Of a DNA stretch of 7,395 nt, positions 2-7,395 are shown one piece after another. The notes beneath the pieces are model-generated. The model ran no database searches and was not told where the DNA came from. It saw nothing but the letters and a program-made list of their open reading frames with translations. Within the stretch, counting starts at the first letter, position 1. Every line of letters starts with the position of its first letter. The position numbers and the translations under genes are program-made. The stretch spans positions 1 to 7,395 of the forward strand of contig JAQCID010000054.1 in assembly GCA_027618855.1 (NCBI GenBank), read 5' to 3'. This DNA comes from Bacteroidota bacterium. Its GTDB lineage: Bacteria > Bacteroidota > Bacteroidia > Flavobacteriales_D > Sanyastnellaceae.

Positions 2-331
2 ACGGAGATCTACGAAGCTAGGGTCCTCTCTCTAAATCATCTTCGCGCCGGTCAAGCGTATCTGTCTTGGCTACTGCAGGATGAAGTTGCTGGGCATGAT
101 GCTTTCCGGCGTGCTTTTCTGAAAGTACGCAACTCTTGCAAGCTTTCTGACAGGTCCTTTGGTTCTCTATTTCGGATAGGTCGAGCGCTAGACCTAGTGC
201 AAAAGAAACAGGATGGTTTAGGGCCAGTGCGAATATTGAAATTTGCGGCATTACATTCAGATGAGCGCGGCGAAGTTGCCAACTGCATTAACGCTGAGCT
301 TGGAACAGCAGGATATGCAGAAACATACTGA
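2..331 (+). CDS. A: C-terminal part of an unrecognised helical protein (5' end outside the window)
   Basis: Frame 2 is open from the left edge to a TGA at 329-331, giving 109 residues with no start in view. I read this as the tail of a gene that begins upstream, because the frame is uninterrupted and its end overlaps the next gene in a typical operon fashion. The segment is predicted mainly alpha-helical. It begins TEIYEARVLSLNHL, continues through a Leu/Ala-rich helix (QAYLSWLLQDEVAG) and an Arg/Lys-rich stretch (FRRAFLKVRNSCKL), and ends GTAGYAETY. There is no membrane segment, and no nucleotide-binding or catalytic motif that I can see. The family cannot be named from this fragment. An upstream ATPase or regulator would be plausible from context, but nothing in these residues shows it. 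The stop lies 17 bases inside gene B if B starts at 315, which suggests coupled translation. Confidence 0.7.
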   Translation, partial: TEIYEARVLSLNHLRAGQAYLSWLLQDEVAGHDAFRRAFLKVRNSCKLSDRSFGSLFRIGRALDLVQKKQDGLGPVRILKFAALHSDERGEVANCINAELGTAGYAETY

Positions 332-1352
332 GGTAAACAGTCACTTTTTTTACGACCTCGGACTGAATAATGAGTCCGAGACGGTCTTAGTGGAGTGGCT
401 AGAAGAGTATTTTAAAGCGGGGTTTTGGCTGCCCTATTGCTGGCTTCTTCCTTTTGCTCTTATTGATATCGGCGTGAAGCCGTTTCCCAGGATTATTCGA
501 GCTAGCCTCACGGTCCACGAGCGAAAGTGGTTTAAGAATGAGCTTCAACAGATTCCACGACTCAAGCAATATGGAAGTGCTATCGCTCGACAGTTGAGCA
601 CGGCCTTGTCCACCAGCGCGACTCAAAGCAAAGCATCTTCCCTGGCAAAGAGGGCGGTCCGGGATGTTTCGCAGGACCTAATCGCCTGGCTAACAAGCGA
701 GGATAATTCCTTGAGAAGGAAGGGCGTTGTTCTCTCAATGGAGGGGCGCTTACGCGACCGAATAAAAAACTCAGGAGACCTTCAATCCATAATCGGGAGC
801 TGGGCTTTCTCCTCAGGCAGGGGCGAGGCATTCGAAGACTTCATACCAGTCACCTGGAATTATCTAGAACAAACGGAGGTTGACCCACAGAGTCCTGATG
901 GCCCAGGAAGTAAAATAAATGGGCAACAGCGAATTATTTCTAGAAGTCAAACCGGAAGCTTCCTTGAACGTTCTGCGGGGTCTATGCCTGCCCAGCTTGG
1001 CAGGTTGAGCCCCATGGATCTACTTTTTCTTAAGGAGGTGCCAGACTATTTCAGTTACAAAGTAGCTTCGTGTGAGATCAACCAGACTTGGGGGAGTCGA
1101 TTGGCTTCCAGTCGGATGAAAAGCAGTGTTCTCCTTGATTTCCATATTGAGCTGGGAGAGTTGGACTTTGTCGTTTCCGATAATTCCAACCCTCCGGCTT
1201 CCGATTTATGTCGAGTTCTCGTGCTTGGCCTCCTTCGTCACGCGGCTTGGTATGTTCGAGAGGGAGTGTGGGACTTAAGTATTAGAATGCGTTGTCAAAC
1301 TCCGCTTGGTTTTGACGATTTCTTCATAGAGGCTGGCCATGTTGAATTTTGA
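315..1352 (+). CDS. B: unrecognised soluble protein of 345 residues, possibly with a degenerate vWA-like C-terminal part
   Basis: I chose the ATG at 315. It leaves only a 17-base overlap with A, and a GGAACAGCAGGA purine stretch lies just upstream. A TTG at 243 (369 residues) and an ATG at 261 are in frame, but both lie deep inside A and lack a ribosome site. Residues about 22-60 are acidic then hydrophobic (VEWLEEYFKAGFWLPYCWLL), which looks like an amphipathic helix rather than a secure membrane span. A basic helical region follows, then a Ser/Gly/Gln-rich linker at roughly residues 190-240. Near the C-terminus, SPMDLLFLKEVPDYF, a strand ending SSVLLDFHIELGEL, a helix (RVLVLGLLRHAAWYV) and a strand (WDLSIRMRC) have the order of the first half of a vWA/Rossmann fold. 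The metal-binding DxSxS is absent: the corresponding stretch reads DFHIE. The vWA idea is inference only. The frame continues open beyond the TGA into gene C. Confidence 0.8.
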   Translation: MQKHTEVNSHFFYDLGLNNESETVLVEWLEEYFKAGFWLPYCWLLPFALIDIGVKPFPRIIRASLTVHERKWFKNELQQIPRLKQYGSAIARQLSTALSTSATQSKASSLAKRAVRDVSQDLIAWLTSEDNSLRRKGVVLSMEGRLRDRIKNSGDLQSIIGSWAFSSGRGEAFEDFIPVTWNYLEQTEVDPQSPDGPGSKINGQQRIISRSQTGSFLERSAGSMPAQLGRLSPMDLLFLKEVPDYFSYKVASCEINQTWGSRLASSRMKSSVLLDFHIELGELDFVVSDNSNPPASDLCRVLVLGLLRHAAWYVREGVWDLSIRMRCQTPLGFDDFFIEAGHVEF

Positions 1353-1354
1353 TC

Positions 1355-1362
1355 AAGGAGGT
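1355..1362 (+). promoter_or_regulatory. Perfect Shine-Dalgarno AAGGAGGT with no ATG at normal spacing
   Basis: AAGGAGGT is a full complement to the usual 3' end of bacterial 16S rRNA. It starts two bases after the stop of B (TGA, 1350-1352). The next ATG of gene C is at 1401, 38 bases beyond the site, which is too far for ordinary initiation. The only near-cognate codon at tolerable distance in the C frame is CTG at 1377, 14 bases away and inside the hairpin. The CTG at 1363 abuts the site and is in another frame, which ends after a few dozen codons. The site probably serves re-initiation of C after B, but which start it uses is unresolved. Confidence 0.5.
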
Positions 1363-1365
1363 CTG

Positions 1366-1380
1366 ACAGGCTTCGCCTGT
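1366..1380 (+). repeat. Perfect 6-bp inverted repeat (hairpin) in the B/C junction
   Basis: ACAGGC (1366-1371) and GCCTGT (1375-1380) are exact reverse complements separated by TTC, and a G-T wobble at 1365/1381 could extend the stem. The hairpin lies between the strong Shine-Dalgarno site and the ATG of gene C, four bases after AAGGAGGT. It could alter access to that site or shorten its distance to a start. It is not followed by a T-run, so it does not resemble an intrinsic terminator. Confidence 0.55.
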
Positions 1381-1400
1381 TCAAAGACATTCGCCATCGC

Positions 1401-1790
1401 ATGCCAGCTTTGTTCGAAGTTAACCCCGGGAAAAAGAACCCAAGGGCCCAGCCACAGGCGTCGAGAACGGATTTGCTGTTGAGCATTGGAATCACCGGTT
1501 CTGCATTGAATCCAGGCCCCATTCTTCAATCAGGCTCAGATGAGACACCGACTGCGTTCACTGCAATGAGAAAGATGGAGACGACCCTAGACCGCGACCA
1601 AGGCGTGGCGTGGTCTGTACGGACACGGGGCACTGTTGGGCATGTGGGAGGGCGATCTGGATGTCTTGCCCCAGACCGCTTCGCGCGCGATCTGTCTTTC
1701 CTTGCAGAGGACCTATTCGGCAGCGTGAAAACGAACCCTTTAGCAAGATTGGCGAAATCAATAACCCAGGCAATTGAGGTCCAACTATGA
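1401..1790 (+). CDS. C: unrecognised 129-residue protein (start uncertain), or the C-terminal part of B behind a TGA
   Basis: This ORF ends in TGA at 1788-1790, overlapping the ATG of D by four bases (ATGA). That is a strong sign that it is translated. The ATG at 1401 has no ribosome site of its own. The frame is open from 1353, so a non-ATG start such as CTG 1377 would add eight residues. The sequence is Pro/Gly/Ser/Thr-rich at first (VNPGKKNPRAQPQASRTD), has a short hydrophobic strand (LLLSIGITG), a stretch GSDETPTAFTAMRKM, and ends in helices (RFARDLSFLAEDLFG and LARLAKSITQAIEV). The GSDETPTA stretch loosely recalls the (G)GTD...AL motif of vWA domains. With B in the same frame, that is why a split B-C protein of about 491 residues is possible. 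G+C over 1441-1740 is about 57% by hand count, above the roughly 45-50% I counted in lines of its neighbours. Function unknown. Confidence 0.6.
   Translation: MPALFEVNPGKKNPRAQPQASRTDLLLSIGITGSALNPGPILQSGSDETPTAFTAMRKMETTLDRDQGVAWSVRTRGTVGHVGGRSGCLAPDRFARDLSFLAEDLFGSVKTNPLARLAKSITQAIEVQL
1776..1780 (+). promoter_or_regulatory. Ribosome binding site of gene D
   Basis: GAGGT ends six bases before the ATG at 1787, within the last codons of C. With the ATGA overlap it supports both the start of D and coupling of D translation to C. Confidence 0.65.
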
Positions 1791-4312
1791 GGGAAAAAGA
1801 TTTTCGACCCTTACTGGAAGTTGTGACCGAGATCACTGTTCAGCACTCGAGAAGTGCCGCTGGTGCCGGACATCCAAAAATCCGGATTAGTGACGATGGC
1901 AAAGCCGGGATAATCCTTAGTCAAGGTCACGAAGAGGCGCTTGAGCAAACAATCGATTGCCAACAACTTGGCAGTAGGGTGAAGCTAACGGAAGCTTGGA
2001 ATCCCACCCAAGGAGTTCGGTTTCTGGTTTGCTCTTCGGCGTCGAAGGGAATGAACGCTTCAGACATTCTAGAAGAAGTCGAAGATTGGAGAGGCTACTC
2101 GGCGAGTTTTGTTCTCTATTCGTGTGAGGAGAAGGGGGAGTTTGGTTGTGTGCTTTTTGAACGAACCGATGAAGCTGACTCTGGGTACGCAGCACCGCTC
2201 ATTAGCGAGAAACTGCAGCTGTTTTGGAGTCTAGGAGGGGTACGTAGATACTATCCCATTGGGCGCTCCCACCCATTTGACGGGCATTCTGTTCATGAAC
2301 AGATTTTCTTTCCGGCGTTGGGAGACTCTGAGTATCTCATTTGGCTTCCTTCCTTGAAAGGGCTGGGCGTCTCCAGATTGAGTTGCGTTATTGAGCCTTC
2401 CCCGTTAATCGTTGGATTGGAAGTCGATTCCGCCGCCTTGTCTGAACTCCGTATCCCGCAAGAAATAAGGGCGGAATTTCCATTGGAAATTAGAAGGGAT
2501 TTTGGCCAATCGACGCCTTGGGGGAGCAGGTCGATCTTCCGGTTAACAACTAAGGGTGCAGAACTTGGCCCTGCTTTACTTGATCTTTTGGATCGGGCAG
2601 AGGCAGATATTCAGAGTGCAACTTACTTTAATCGAGTTCTTGGAATGGGGCCTTATGCTGAGGTCGAGCATTTCTTTCTTATCGAGGACGAAGGCGAAGG
2701 GAAAAGGCGGTTTCTACCCGATGACTCTGTGTTTCGGCAGCCTGAAGCCTTTGAAAACATTGGGGTGGACGTTTTCCTTAATTCAGCGAGGAGGTTCCGC
2801 CCCAACCTGTCTCAAGTAATTGAATCGTCTCTAGGCGATAGGTTGGTGGTTGAAAAAATCCGATCGGTGTTCGGGGCCGAAGCAGGAGTGATTTGCCTGG
2901 TTGGGGGGTACGAGGATGGGCGCCCAGAGATTTTGCGTTTGTCTGACGGGAAGCCGTTGAAAGAGGTCATCGCTGCGATTGTGAATTCGTGGATGGCGGG
3001 ATCTGCAAAGAAAATATCACCTGGCTTTGAGGCACATTTAGTGAGCCATATCGAGGCAGAGGTTTCTCAAGTAGAGGATCGAGCCGCGGCAGAAGTTGAT
3101 GAACATGATCAGGACTTCCGAGCTTACTGCACGGGTCTTGAGGAGTTGCTGGCTTCCCACGAGGCAAATGCAAAAAGTCTTGGTGGACGCCTTTCTGAGG
3201 CAACTGAGGTTGGGCAGAAGTGTGCTAGCTACCTCTCGGAATCAGAGAAGGATTGGGTGAAGTTTGCGAATAATCTAGCTTCCCTAATTGAGGAGTTAAA
3301 TTCTGCCAATCAAGCCTGGCTGGAAAATTGTGATATCGGTGTGATGATCGTCGACGGCTGGCAGGAGTCGATATTCAAAACCCTACTTTCACATGAGGAT
3401 ATTGCTTCTACCATTCTCAAGACATATAATAATAATCAGGCATCCTTACAAACCTGCGAAAAGAAAGTTGCAGGCATTTTGCCAATAATTGAGGGCGTAC
3501 AGAAGGAAGCGGAACAGTCTTCAAAGGATTTGAAGAACCTGGAAGAAATAGCAGACACTTCCATTCAGAAATTGGAGCAACGCCTTGCAGCAGAGGATGC
3601 CAAGCTACGTGAGTGGAGTAGTCAGCTAAATAGTCGCAAGGGAAAGCTGGTTTCGCAGAGAGTGGCGTTGGATGTTCGGCAAGGAGACCTCCAGAATCTT
3701 CAGAAAGAGAATGCTCGGACGGAGAAATCTCAACAGCAAGAGTCAGCAGCCTTGAAATTGAAGGAGAGTGCGGCGGAGGACGAGGTTAAGAGGCTACACC
3801 AGGTTCGCGATTACGAGATTCCAAGGCAAGAAAAGGAGGTTAAGAATGCAGCGGAAAAGCTTAATGTAATCCTTTTCGAAAAATACGACGAGAAATTGCG
3901 GTCAGCAGTTGCGACATTAGAGAAGTTGGAAATTAAGTTGAAGAGTGAGCGGGCCAAGCATAAGGAATTGCAACAGGCTCAGAGCAAGCAAGACTTGACT
4001 GCCCTTCATTTGCGCGAAGTCGAAGCGGGTAATGTTGAATCCGCTCAGACAATTAAGAAGCGCCAGAAGGATCTTGTTACTTTGGAGAAGAACGTAAAGG
4101 TAGCTGAAGCGAACTTGCATGCTGAGAGGGCTGAACTTGCGGAACGAATCCGGGTCCAGAGTTCCCAACTGGAAGATCTGGAGAAAAAGAGGAAGGGTGT
4201 ATCCGGTGTACGCGCGAAGCTCAATAAAGCGCGATCCCTTATCAAAGAGGTAAAGAGGGAGAAGGAGTCCATTGGAAAGGCACCATGGTTTTGGCCATTC
4301 CGAAAGAGATAA
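1787..4312 (+). CDS. D: 841-residue protein with a beta-rich N-terminal half and a long C-terminal coiled coil
   Basis: Unrecognised family with a clear two-part architecture. Residues 1 to about 415 are globular and mixed, rich in beta-strand-like stretches (VRFLVCSSAS, SASFVLYSCEEKG, EYLIWLPSLKGLG, RLVVEKIRSVFGAEAG, GVICLVGGYEDG). From about residue 421 to 830 the sequence is charged and helical. An interrupted segment (about 421-500, then a short region containing IGVMIVDGWQESIF) precedes a nearly continuous heptad-rich coiled coil from about 560 to 825, dense in Lys, Glu, Gln, Ala and Leu. The protein ends in an aromatic and basic tail, APWFWPFRKR. It superficially resembles SMC/Rad50 or myosin rods, but I find no Walker A (GxxxxGKS/T), Walker B or signature motif, so it is probably structural rather than an ATPase. 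No signal peptide or membrane span is seen, so a cytoplasmic location is likely, possibly membrane-associated through the tail. It overlaps C by four bases and precedes E by three. Confidence 0.9.
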   Translation: MREKDFRPLLEVVTEITVQHSRSAAGAGHPKIRISDDGKAGIILSQGHEEALEQTIDCQQLGSRVKLTEAWNPTQGVRFLVCSSASKGMNASDILEEVEDWRGYSASFVLYSCEEKGEFGCVLFERTDEADSGYAAPLISEKLQLFWSLGGVRRYYPIGRSHPFDGHSVHEQIFFPALGDSEYLIWLPSLKGLGVSRLSCVIEPSPLIVGLEVDSAALSELRIPQEIRAEFPLEIRRDFGQSTPWGSRSIFRLTTKGAELGPALLDLLDRAEADIQSATYFNRVLGMGPYAEVEHFFLIEDEGEGKRRFLPDDSVFRQPEAFENIGVDVFLNSARRFRPNLSQVIESSLGDRLVVEKIRSVFGAEAGVICLVGGYEDGRPEILRLSDGKPLKEVIAAIVNSWMAGSAKKISPGFEAHLVSHIEAEVSQVEDRAAAEVDEHDQDFRAYCTGLEELLASHEANAKSLGGRLSEATEVGQKCASYLSESEKDWVKFANNLASLIEELNSANQAWLENCDIGVMIVDGWQESIFKTLLSHEDIASTILKTYNNNQASLQTCEKKVAGILPIIEGVQKEAEQSSKDLKNLEEIADTSIQKLEQRLAAEDAKLREWSSQLNSRKGKLVSQRVALDVRQGDLQNLQKENARTEKSQQQESAALKLKESAAEDEVKRLHQVRDYEIPRQEKEVKNAAEKLNVILFEKYDEKLRSAVATLEKLEIKLKSERAKHKELQQAQSKQDLTALHLREVEAGNVESAQTIKKRQKDLVTLEKNVKVAEANLHAERAELAERIRVQSSQLEDLEKKRKGVSGVRAKLNKARSLIKEVKREKESIGKAPWFWPFRKR

Positions 4313-4315
4313 GAT

Positions 4316-4804
4316 ATGTCTGATTACCCTTCGCTTAGCAGAACCACCAAAAAGTGGGACTCTCGTTCAGAAAAGAACAGGGAGCGTCTTGAGAATCTTT
4401 TTCAATTACTTCTCCAGTGCGAGGTGAAGGGGGAAGGCGTTTCGTCTTTCTTTTTTGGTCTTGCTGTCCGAGTGGACAGGAAAGGTGATATTTGTTCCTT
4501 GGCCAAAGAAAGGATGGGCCAATCTAGAAAGAATCGCAGGTCCGTTGATAAGGGCAAATTGGATCCATGGCTAAATGTGGCGAAAGGAAAGCTCAATGAA
4601 TCACAGAGAGACTTAAAGTCAACCGCGGCATATTTAGAGCATGGGGAGGAATCTGTCCTAACCTTCTCTGCCTTTGTAGTGGAGGCACAGAAAAATCGGG
4701 TGGAGTGCATGCGCAGAATCGAATTGTGCATCGAGGAGGTCGCTACTCTGAAATCGACGATTCAACAGCTCCAGGAAGGGATTGAGGCTTGGGATGAAGC
4801 TTAA
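4316..4804 (+). CDS. E: small, mainly helical, partly coiled-coil protein of 162 residues
   Basis: The ATG lies three bases after the stop of D (TAA, 4310-4312), with a weak purine-rich site (AAAGAGATAAG) in front. Residues 1-35 are hydrophilic and highly charged (TKKWDSRSEKNRERLENLF). A short hydrophobic patch follows (GVSSFFFGLAVRV, about 41-53), too short and too interrupted by charge to be a convincing membrane span. The remainder is basic then amphipathic: KGKLNESQRDLKSTAAYLEH, then a C-terminal helix with heptad-like spacing (MRRIELCIEEVATLKSTIQQ) ending EGIEAWDEA. There is no catalytic motif. Its position between the coiled-coil protein D and membrane protein F suggests an adaptor or a partner helix for one of them. 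That role is inferred from order and helical character only. The stop falls 11 bases inside F. Confidence 0.8.
   Translation: MSDYPSLSRTTKKWDSRSEKNRERLENLFQLLLQCEVKGEGVSSFFFGLAVRVDRKGDICSLAKERMGQSRKNRRSVDKGKLDPWLNVAKGKLNESQRDLKSTAAYLEHGEESVLTFSAFVVEAQKNRVECMRRIELCIEEVATLKSTIQQLQEGIEAWDEA
4784..4787 (+). promoter_or_regulatory. Ribosome binding site of gene F
   Basis: GAGG lies six bases before the ATG at 4794. A second purine-rich element, AGGAAGG, is at 4773-4779. Both lie inside the last codons of E. They favour 4794 over the next in-frame ATG (4980), which would remove the first two membrane segments. Confidence 0.6.
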
Positions 4805-7395
4805 TCGGAGCCGCATACATTTTTTTTGGCTTGCTTTGGCTGGCGCAATCGCTTCTGAAGCACTTTGGGCGATTCCGGGTGTTGGGCTATTCGCATCAAC
4901 AGAACTATTGCACGGTCAAGCTAGGTGGGTTCTCTTCTTTTTGCTCGGCGCTTTACTCCTACTGTCGCCTTTAGCGAACATGAGCGGTAGGAGGTCCCAT
5001 TTGAAAATTGCGGTTGAGGTGACTCTGTTCGGATTCATACTTGCATTTTTCATCAGAGTTTTGTTTGATACGCAGTTGCTTGAGCGCAGCGATGTCCTTT
5101 GGCTTCTACTGTTCTCAGCACTTTTGTTTCTGGCCTTCGGTAGGATCATAGCCAAATTTGCGATTCGCTTCCTTTTACGGTTTGTCTCTCCCTCGAAGAT
5201 TGCGTCATTTGTATCAGGGTTCTGTGCAATACCAGGTGGCGATGGCGCGAGTTATAGGGCAGGTCTTTTCACTGGACGGGCTGTTCGGCCAATCCAGGGC
5301 AAGCCGGCGGCGTTGTCAGTTCAAACTCTCCGGCGCTGTCAAGGTGCGACGGATTTGGCGTCGAGGAGACTACTTAGGAGATTACTTAAGAGGAAAGCAA
5401 ATAAGGCGGCACTGAATGCAAGCTGTCGATCCCTGCTTAACGCTTGGCGTGCAGAGGCTCGCGTTTCCCGCTGCTTCGCACTTTTTTTTGAAGACGAGTA
5501 CCTGAGTGGTACCCCCTGGCTTCCCCGATTTGATGAAGTTTGGTGCTGCTTGTTGGAAGCTGAATGGCAGTGGAAGGAAGACCTTGATGGTTCATTCTCC
5601 GCCCAAGCCCTTGAAACACTCATTGACGAAGTGGCTGATGTACGCGCTGAAGGAGTCCCAGCCTGGTGTTCTCAAAAGTTCATGCAAAAGGGCAGAGTTG
5701 TTTCTGGTGAAGAATGGCGAGAGCTAAACCAAGCCATAAGGCAAAATAAAAATAGTGGAGGCTCGAGCTCCATCCCTGGTTTTTGGCAGTCCATTGTGGC
5801 TGAAAAGTTTTTGCGAAATGGATTTCCAGCATGGGCTCTTGGTTGCCTGGAGGAGTTCGATGAAGATCACTGGTTGCGGTCACGAAATATTTTGAGGCAT
5901 AGAGCCTTGACCTGTTTAGGGACAGGCTTATCAGTCGGTATTTCAAAAGGAGATTCGTCTGCACTTGAGCATGAGGCAATACGTTTTGGCAAGACAAGCT
6001 CAGCGAAAATCTCCCCAAAGAAATCGCGGCAGTGGGGTAGTCGCCGAGGCGGAAAAAGCAAGCTTCCGATTTGGGATTTCGGAGCTGGTTCAGGGGTAGT
6101 AATGGCGCTGGCATGCCTTGCTGCGGTGGCACTCGCATGGACGTGGAGCGGCACCAACGTAATGGGCGATCCTTGGCCGGTCTTTCGAGATATCCACAGA
6201 GCATTGGATTATCAGGAGTCTCCTCTTACCACTGCAACGAAGGGGGATAGCAGCGATTCTATTCTCATTGGTGATGCGGATGGCCGAGTTCATGAATTTT
6301 CCACCCGTAACTTTCGGATGACGACCGATGTCGGTCTCACTGGACACTCTCTGCCCATTGCCCAACTTGCAGCGGGTGACGATGGTGGGAATGCCTTCGC
6401 GTTGGTTGGAGACGCTGATATTCGAGGGTTGTTTGCCAGAAAGAAGGGGCGTGGCTGGGATGCAATTCTCCCAATGGATTCAATCCCATGGTTCGATGAG
6501 GAAAGCATTCTTGATGTTGAGCTCATGAACAGCGAGTGGCTTTTTGCTACGAAGAAGGGAGTTGTGAGGTACGACGTTTCCTCTCGCTTGCTCAAGGGTT
6601 TTAAGTTTGATGAGATTGCTGACGCCGATAAAGCGAGGTGGCAAGGCGAGGGCAAGCTCCTGATACTCAGGTCAGGGCATCTGGAGGAGCTAGTTATGCA
6701 GAAGGATGAGGCACCTTTACTTTCTCAGCTTTCTGATCCAGGCGCTAATCCTATAGTCGATATCGCCGACGATAAATACAGCCTGTGCGAGTCAGGGGAG
6801 GCGTTCCGGCGGAAGGACAATGTGTGGGAGCGCATCATGGGCGGAGCCCAGTTTCCAGGGCGACAGGTGTTTCAAGATGGTTGGACCCAGGCTTCAGAAG
6901 CGGCTGGAACAATCTGGTCTATTCTGCCAGTAGAGGGATCATCCAGATGGATTGTTAGCTCGCGAAGCCTGAGCGAGAACTTTTGGAGGCAGACAGAGGC
7001 AGGTGACCTCACCTTGAAGCCTCCGCCGATGATTCATCCAGATGGGAATTCGATTCGAATCGCCCTCAATGCAGGCGGATTTCTTGACGTTTCTCTAATT
7101 GGAAGCGTGTTGGAATCCTCAATCTCTGAAATGAGAGATAAAATTCTTTCTTGGGATTCGTCGGCCAATAACAATTTGATTCTGGGTGTTGATTCTCTGG
7201 GTGTTAAACGCTTGCGGATTTCCGATTGGACAATGGCAGAAGACATCGTGTCAAATCTTCGTGGACTTCTCCGACTCCAAGACACAACTGTCACCGCGAA
7301 TGAATGGGCTGCTGTTACTGTTGGCCCAACCCAGCAAGACGCTTTCTTTATTAAACACTCTGGCGAGGCATATCTTTATGACTTTAAGCTTGGTG
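4794..7395 (+). CDS. F: membrane protein with 4+1 transmembrane segments and a C-terminal beta-propeller-like domain (3' end outside the window)
   Basis: Frame 3 is open from the ATG at 4794 to the right edge, 867 full codons with no stop. Four hydrophobic segments lie at about residues 10-33, 45-61, 70-91 and 101-119. Lys/Arg in MKLNRSR, in the 62-71 loop (MSGRRSHLK) and after segment 4 (RIIAKFAIRFLLRF) predict an N-in topology with the region after segment 4 cytoplasmic. Residues about 133-428 form a soluble, Arg-rich, helical domain with many Trp and acidic residues in its second half. A very basic stretch (SPKKSRQWGSRRGGKSK) precedes membrane segment 5 (about 430-451), which should export the rest. 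From about 487 on, blade-like strands recur: SILIGDADGRVHEF (from about 489), WLFATKKGVVRYDV (from 582), and later LILGVDSLGVKRLRI and SGEAYLYDF. These resemble beta-propeller repeats of WD/PQQ or sensor type. The family is not recognised. Overlap with E implies coupled expression. Confidence 0.85.
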   Translation, partial: MKLNRSRIHFFWLALAGAIASEALWAIPGVGLFASTELLHGQARWVLFFLLGALLLLSPLANMSGRRSHLKIAVEVTLFGFILAFFIRVLFDTQLLERSDVLWLLLFSALLFLAFGRIIAKFAIRFLLRFVSPSKIASFVSGFCAIPGGDGASYRAGLFTGRAVRPIQGKPAALSVQTLRRCQGATDLASRRLLRRLLKRKANKAALNASCRSLLNAWRAEARVSRCFALFFEDEYLSGTPWLPRFDEVWCCLLEAEWQWKEDLDGSFSAQALETLIDEVADVRAEGVPAWCSQKFMQKGRVVSGEEWRELNQAIRQNKNSGGSSSIPGFWQSIVAEKFLRNGFPAWALGCLEEFDEDHWLRSRNILRHRALTCLGTGLSVGISKGDSSALEHEAIRFGKTSSAKISPKKSRQWGSRRGGKSKLPIWDFGAGSGVVMALACLAAVALAWTWSGTNVMGDPWPVFRDIHRALDYQESPLTTATKGDSSDSILIGDADGRVHEFSTRNFRMTTDVGLTGHSLPIAQLAAGDDGGNAFALVGDADIRGLFARKKGRGWDAILPMDSIPWFDEESILDVELMNSEWLFATKKGVVRYDVSSRLLKGFKFDEIADADKARWQGEGKLLILRSGHLEELVMQKDEAPLLSQLSDPGANPIVDIADDKYSLCESGEAFRRKDNVWERIMGGAQFPGRQVFQDGWTQASEAAGTIWSILPVEGSSRWIVSSRSLSENFWRQTEAGDLTLKPPPMIHPDGNSIRIALNAGGFLDVSLIGSVLESSISEMRDKILSWDSSANNNLILGVDSLGVKRLRISDWTMAEDIVSNLRGLLRLQDTTVTANEWAAVTVGPTQQDAFFIKHSGEAYLYDFKLG
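4820..4827 (+). repeat. Run of eight T in the first membrane-segment codons of F
   Basis: The T8 tract covers the end of His9, Phe10, Phe11 and the first base of Trp12 of F. Gain of one T would lead to a TGA at original positions 4856-4858, and loss of one T would also truncate the protein early. It is a possible slippage site. A chance hydrophobic-codon run is equally possible. Confidence 0.4.
5482..5489 (+). repeat. Second run of eight T within F
   Basis: A T8 tract encodes part of the ALFFE stretch in the soluble middle domain of F. Like the tract at 4820-4827, it could allow polymerase or replication slippage that would shift the frame ahead of the fifth membrane segment and the propeller-like region. 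Confidence 0.4.

Follow-up and report, generated by a model that had tools for sequence, protein, structure and literature searches.

The described systems closest to the locus studied here are the MoxR-vWA-beta-propeller (bp) operons, known from bacterial conflict and signalling. According to PMC7159879, the third component of these systems combines a membrane segment, TPR and a propeller, and extra unassigned proteins accompany the core genes. Two of the four bp operons that we took from genomes of the phylum, confirmed with Pfam, encode bpX4, bpMoxR, bpX2, bpX0/bpX1, bpX3 and a transmembrane (TM)-TPR protein, and a bp operon on a Hymenobacter plasmid has a third component of 959 residues. 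Here we describe a stretch of 7,395 nucleotides (contig JAQCID010000054.1, assembly GCA_027618855.1; the whole stretch is called the window), a 7.4-kb complete contig of a Bacteroidota metagenome-assembled genome (MAG). We found that the window holds genuine, closely packed genes, which we call B, D, E and F; they are not yet a demonstrated system. Operons that combine a membrane protein, a scaffold and small partners are a known kind, and the proteins of this one are without family assignment. In the open-licence PubMed Central (PMC) literature on MoxR-vWA-propeller systems, PDC-M05/PDC-M11, bpX, and coiled-coil, propeller, defence-island and vWA proteins, we found no paper describing this gene set.

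The locus resembles the bp systems in being a multi-gene same-strand operon with several small unassigned proteins and a possible degenerate vWA, and its protein F has membrane segments and possible repeats where the bp third component has a membrane segment, TPR and a propeller. In contrast, searches of the window detected no family of the bpX, MoxR, vWA or propeller type, there is no profile-level similarity to six Bacteroidota bp components, and no long rod protein like D figured in the bp operons whose components were read. RavA-ViaA, a MoxR ATPase and its vWA partner, offers another likeness, as B has 491 residues and ViaA about 483 (locus L195), and B would follow an ATPase gene if the frame before it, A, is one; however, the pair B-ViaA is not among the 12 best of 91 pairwise comparisons and A was not recognised as an ATPase. 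A third system is PDC-M05, a candidate defence pair in PADLOC, which PMC12988326 describes as a nucleotidyltransferase with a HEPN-domain protein. E, which has weak matches only, matches PDC-M05B over 66 residues in PADLOC (E-value 7e-4) and phrog_14909 (E-value 0.0029), but no nucleotidyltransferase was recognised in the window, and the PDC-M05B match is probably a helical chance match.

Reading all six frames gave A at 2-331, B ending at 1352 with its start at 261 or 315, C at 1353-1790 in frame with B, and then D, E and F. The features of the window are as follows.

2..331, + strand: A, the last 109 codons of an open frame that the contig start truncates; not proven to be a gene.
315..1790 (the start may be 261), + strand: B including C, one gene of 491 residues in relatives, with the window's stop at 1350-1352; seven of seven relatives are uninterrupted.
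1787..4312, + strand: D, 841 residues, from relatives and open frame length.
1787-3028, + strand: head of D, residues 1-414, from the structure model and conservation.
3029-4261, + strand: predicted helical rod of D, residues 415-825, from the model.
4274-4309, + strand: aromatic-basic C-terminal tail of D, FWPFR then basic residues, from conservation.
4316..4804, + strand: E, 162 residues, small, charged and likely helical; codon agreement best of six frames (r 0.51).
4794..7394, + strand: F, a membrane protein of 867 residues, open at the contig end; codon agreement best of six frames (r 0.71).
4821..5186, + strand: four hydrophobic segments of F (predicted TM1-TM4), residues 10-33, 38-64, 72-90 and 101-131, from Kyte-Doolittle hydropathy.
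5187..6077, + strand: predicted cytoplasmic part of F, residues 132-428, from charge (48 K+R against 31 D+E at 120-440).
6078..6134, + strand: hydrophobic segment of F (predicted TM5), residues 429-447, from Kyte-Doolittle hydropathy (peak 2.11).
6141..7394, + strand: predicted periplasmic part of F, residues 450-867, with 42 K+R against 60 D+E and possible repeats of about 45 residues.

An earlier reading made from the letters alone (the sequence-only reading) had described at least six tightly packed same-strand genes. The packing is confirmed by the gene ends and starts: A, ending at 331, overlaps B, whose start is 261 or 315; the end of B with C (1790) and the start of D (1787) share an ATGA; three bases separate the end of D at 4312 from the start of E at 4316; and E ends at 4804, inside F, which starts at 4794. 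The count has to be lowered to four solid genes (B including C, D, E and F), all on the + strand, since C arises only from an in-frame stop and A is without support. These closely packed genes likely form one operon, and no promoter-like site was found on the + strand within the window. In 300 first-order Markov (Markov-1) sequences generated from the window, the longest stop-free run had a median of 173 and a maximum of 328 codons, which the 841 residues of D and the 867 of F far exceed. Codon-usage agreement with the other genes is best in the right frame for D, E and F, and both A and B fail that test; B is kept as a gene because it has conserved relatives, a rescue that A does not have.

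A protein search with B gave seven relatives (P0010-P0016) of 3897 candidates, six of them 491 or 508 residues long and one a 426-residue piece, and in all seven the frame is open across the position of the window's stop. Of the 491 positions compared, the protein of the window departs from P0010 at just four: 345, 346 (the stop), 347 and 349. As all seven relatives run through the stop and P0010 is near-identical, B and C make up one gene, intact elsewhere, and the small separate partner that C had been thought to encode disappears. The stop sits inside one of two patches of clustered differences from near-identical relatives, at window positions 1347-1361 (B 345-349) and 3326-3352 (D 514-522, against P0004); we read both as local assembly error or strain mixing, a real change being possible.

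The structure model of B is of low confidence (mean predicted local distance difference test, pLDDT, 38.6); its N-terminal third is helical and its C-terminal half alpha/beta, with a vWA-like order of secondary-structure elements at 273-468. In a vWA domain the metal-ion-dependent adhesion site (MIDAS) motif, DxSxS, stands at the end of the first strand. The window's B has LLDFHIELGE at this position; all seven relatives keep D275, and the serines are absent. The motif is defined with two aspartates in PMC7159879. A metal-less vWA fold in B, as proposed in the sequence-only reading, is possible, but neither family libraries nor structure comparison supported it. Foldseek returned nothing at E <= 0.001 for the model and VIA-align no match worth naming, lists from which a fold can be absent without being thereby excluded. 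Neither a vWA nor a propeller match was found with Pfam in any of the seven relatives, nor with PADLOC, and there is no room for a C-terminal propeller, since the protein ends first. The best hit of B in a PDB sequence search had an E-value of 0.95, and scans of viral contigs and plasmids found no relative.

D has at least six relatives among 7992 candidates scored, with five at 68-87% identity and a near-identical (99%) fragment of 664 residues. The fraction of columns invariant in all six D sequences is 0.66 at residues 106-345 and 0.31 at 601-825 of the rod, and the C-terminal FWPFR is kept in five of the six though the region before it varies; this tail is possibly a membrane-interface anchor. 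The model of D is poor (mean pLDDT 41.2) and places mixed strands and helices up to about residue 410, then helices to about 800. A heptad signal above that of shuffled sequences is confined to about 491-630 and 701-770 and is lacking at 631-735. The description of D as a very long coiled-coil protein without ATPase motifs holds in part: the long predicted helical rod and the lack of a Pfam ATPase match agree with it, but the heptads are only partial. Pfam found no ATPase family in the head of the six sequences, one of which matched DUF1948 (E-value 2.5e-4) and the others not. An SMC/Rad50-type coiled-coil ATPase was considered and rejected, with no Walker A/B motifs and no ATPase family found; the match of D to SMC_prok_B (E-value 0.0047; 14.7 bits, where the cut-off is 567) is coiled-coil overlap only. 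In a PDB sequence search the best E-value was 0.56. Scans of collections were made with patterns that require short exact peptides, and in this way D gave 295 pattern matches and no relative in contigs of GTDB species genomes, and no relative in viral contigs, plasmids or phages.

E shows no significant heptad pattern and had no hit at 0.1 in a PDB sequence search. For F, hydrophobic segments were called on the Kyte-Doolittle scale with a 19-residue window. The charge pattern suggests that the N-terminus and residues 132-428 are inside and the C-terminal part outside, the N-terminus being placed inside because of the basic residues at 1-10 and 65-72. In the outer part, nine motifs chosen by eye are spaced 39-55 residues apart, with a repeat self-similarity of p 0.035 by number of offsets and 0.17 by best offset; beta-propensity autocorrelation is flat at lags of 40-50, and no Pfam repeat family was matched up to an E-value of 10. 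The earlier description of F as a membrane protein with an external propeller is therefore upheld for the membrane segments, whereas the propeller has no support in family libraries; the periplasmic part may be one. Only F itself was recovered among 7996 candidates, a range that takes in complete relatives up to about 1517 residues, F being cut by the contig end. The best E-value of F in a PDB sequence search was 0.096, and no relative was found in plasmids.

B and D were absent from all 99 other genomes of the genus, family and order, 13 of them of the same genus. Among 395 genomes of the phylum, B gave its own MAG and ten short matches (26-74 positions, 11.8-18.0 bits, six of ten with internal stops), the best of which (in G100) lies inside a frame bearing a P-loop of another kind, and D gave its own MAG and six matches of 11.5-13.0 bits. 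F, searched in 198 genomes, gave its own MAG and three matches of 59-61 residues. We take these short matches as chance, so that there is no convincing match in the 394 other genomes for B and D or the 197 for F. Relatives of B and D (68-95% identity) were found only in metagenome data, as small sets with similar identity tiers.

The host deserves a separate comment. The MAG is 63% complete with 0.04% contamination, and the guanine-plus-cytosine (GC) content of the window is 0.497 against 0.427-0.492 in 20 sampled contigs of the same MAG; the tetranucleotide correlation of the window with these contigs is 0.638, while that of the contigs among themselves is 0.771-0.950. Because this make-up does not match its own MAG, the contig is likely mis-binned or foreign. 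This mismatch bears on every host claim.

Our preferred explanation, which we put forward tentatively as possible rather than probable, is that the locus encodes an envelope-spanning complex in which F carries a signal between periplasm and cytoplasm and the rod of D is a membrane-tethered scaffold for B and E. In this sense, F would be a membrane transducer between its periplasmic domain and the cytoplasm, the rod would be tethered at the membrane by the aromatic-basic tail, and B and E would be partners on the scaffold. The features that argue for it are the packing, the segments and charge pattern of F, the conservation contrast between head and rod in D, the tail in five of six sequences, the small metagenome sets of B and D relatives with their similar identity tiers, and the lack of an internal + strand promoter-like site. 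From these observed sequence features we infer the complex, the sensed signal and the output; likewise, the topology of F, the rod of D and the docking of its tail at the membrane are predicted. A stress or conflict (anti-invader) output seems somewhat more likely than a housekeeping one given the patchy occurrence of B and D, which the close relatives of the MAG lack, and the system is perhaps a far-diverged conflict or signalling system. Several points weigh against this explanation: the low pLDDT of the D model; the weak B model (pLDDT 39) and the null Foldseek result for B; a heptad signal over only part of the rod and none in E; periplasmic repeats of F that are statistically weak; the lack of a detected relative of F; domain calls that find no backing in structures or families; and the co-location of B, D, E and F known from one contig only. 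In addition, the contig is perhaps not from that MAG, which weakens the argument from patchiness.

An ordinary lineage-specific envelope or cell-surface operon of an undersampled bacterium, novel-looking since its lineage is missing from databases, is the alternative that fares best, and we hold it to be somewhat unlikely. An unsampled clade would give what was found, namely relatives of B and D in metagenomes only and none for D in the GTDB scan, and no defence or mobility mark appears in the window (no Rfam match, and a best PADLOC E-value of 7e-4). On the other hand, envelope proteins with housekeeping roles can usually be recognised across phyla, and none of the window proteins was recognised as a housekeeping family in scans with Pfam, NCBIfam, PHROGs and PADLOC. 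The sequence-only reading had stated that these proteins could not be assigned to a family, and indeed none reaches a curated family cut-off in those four libraries.

The same reading had likened the locus to MoxR-vWA-propeller conflict and signalling operons. As a rival explanation, the locus would be a far-diverged bp ternary conflict system: A would be the end of a MoxR ATPase, B a degenerate vWA partner and D a rod bearing a bpX3-like head, and F, with its membrane segment, a TPR-like region and a propeller, would be the third component. Gene order and make-up do recall bp operons (bpX4, MoxR, bpX2, vWA protein, bpX3 protein, TM-TPR protein), as do the published third components (membrane segment, TPR, propeller; PMC7159879) and likenesses seen by eye in A, F and the vWA-like order of the low-confidence B model. 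The bp examples compared were those of four phylum genomes, the best 80 of 116 genome-scan relatives (nearly all Chryseobacterium) and one Hymenobacter plasmid. They are from Bacteroidota only (Chryseobacterium-type, Taibaiella, Hymenobacter), and a distant link to bp systems of other lineages, such as the proteobacterial, planctomycete and verrucomicrobial ones, may exist. The entry names agree with the accessions used, PF20030, PF19917 and PF17868, and 21 comparison proteins are presumably of DUF58 type, a label based on a motif.

Against these examples, the likeness fell away. No bpX, MoxR, vWA, TPR or propeller family was detected in the window proteins, and no bpX match in six window frames, the seven B relatives or the six D sequences. 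Profiles of bpX2, bpX3, bpX4 and the bpX0/bpX1 protein matched the window proteins at chance level, the best hhalign probability in 54 comparisons with bp components was 2.9%, and an HMM (hidden Markov model) search of 1782 frames had a best E-value of 0.43. Profile-profile searches, proposed with the sequence-only reading, gave nothing beyond chance against bp components: six of 60 tests had p <= 0.05 (lowest 0.01), a yield that so many tests can give. The best of the 91 pairwise tests (z 3.31) joins the cytoplasmic part of F and the Hymenobacter protein at the bpX2 position, a pair without clear meaning, and the second (z 3.23) a region of F and the third component of L085.

The individual candidates were rejected as well. 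The LLNAW...CFALFF region of F, likened to the TPR region of a bp third component, has a score that 231/5000 and 36/5000 shuffles reach, but 207 unrelated frames score higher. The head of D went unreported as bpX3 for five of six sequences, and the sixth was matched by 63 of 1000 shuffles. Searches with bp vWA and DUF58-type profiles did not report B, which also lacks the MIDAS motif, and no window protein qualifies as a vWA protein with a C-terminal propeller. A, proposed by eye as a MoxR lid from its LSDR motif, fails controls and is at chance in profile-profile tests: against the lid profile 115 of 3000 shuffles are as good (2885 are beaten), against bpMoxR 541 of 2000 shuffles rank above it (about three quarters are beaten), and against 12 MoxR-type proteins the lowest p, 0.036, is not at the lid. 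As each likeness was first picked by eye, the nominal p-values are biased in its favour, and still the likenesses fail controls. A has no family match (none in Pfam up to an E-value of 10), the agreement of its codon usage with that of the other genes is r 0.27, below the 0.43 of another frame of the same stretch, and it is not beyond chance as a gene. The MAG of the window had no bpMoxR or AAA_lid_8 match at E <= 0.001; the bpMoxR model itself is unspecific, since 98 of 100 genomes match it, as do 12 of 14 controls. We take it that homology of the window proteins to bp components is not demonstrated and that, on these comparisons, membership is not supported; the far-diverged bp system is accordingly a doubtful reading.

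Two side observations concern the bp systems themselves. They are widespread in Chryseobacterium, the source of most of the best 80 of 116 loci, and the plasmid of Hymenobacter yonginensis (L196:11338-19174) carries a seemingly complete bp operon, which encodes an AAA ATPase and four proteins with hypothetical annotation; an integrase is annotated about 8 kb away.

A fuller version of the conflict or signalling idea, an undescribed envelope-spanning system of an unsampled lineage in which a periplasmic sensor propeller on a five-helix membrane protein would drive a cytoplasmic machine made of a giant coiled-coil rod and a metal-less vWA-like partner, sequence-unrelated to known MoxR-vWA systems, seems to us quite unlikely. 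That the pattern is partly an assembly product, from a mis-binned or chimeric contig and base errors making or breaking frames, is improbable: the tetranucleotide and GC values (0.638 and 0.497) that set the window off from its MAG, the clustered differences at B 345-349 and D 514-522 and the absence of B and D from 13 of 13 same-genus genomes would fit it, but the B and D genes themselves are real, because they are intact and conserved in independent assemblies.

Several multi-gene membrane-linked systems of bacteria act in anti-phage defence or stress signalling. If the envelope-spanning complex proposed here is true, the locus would add new protein families to the poorly understood multi-gene membrane-linked systems of bacteria.

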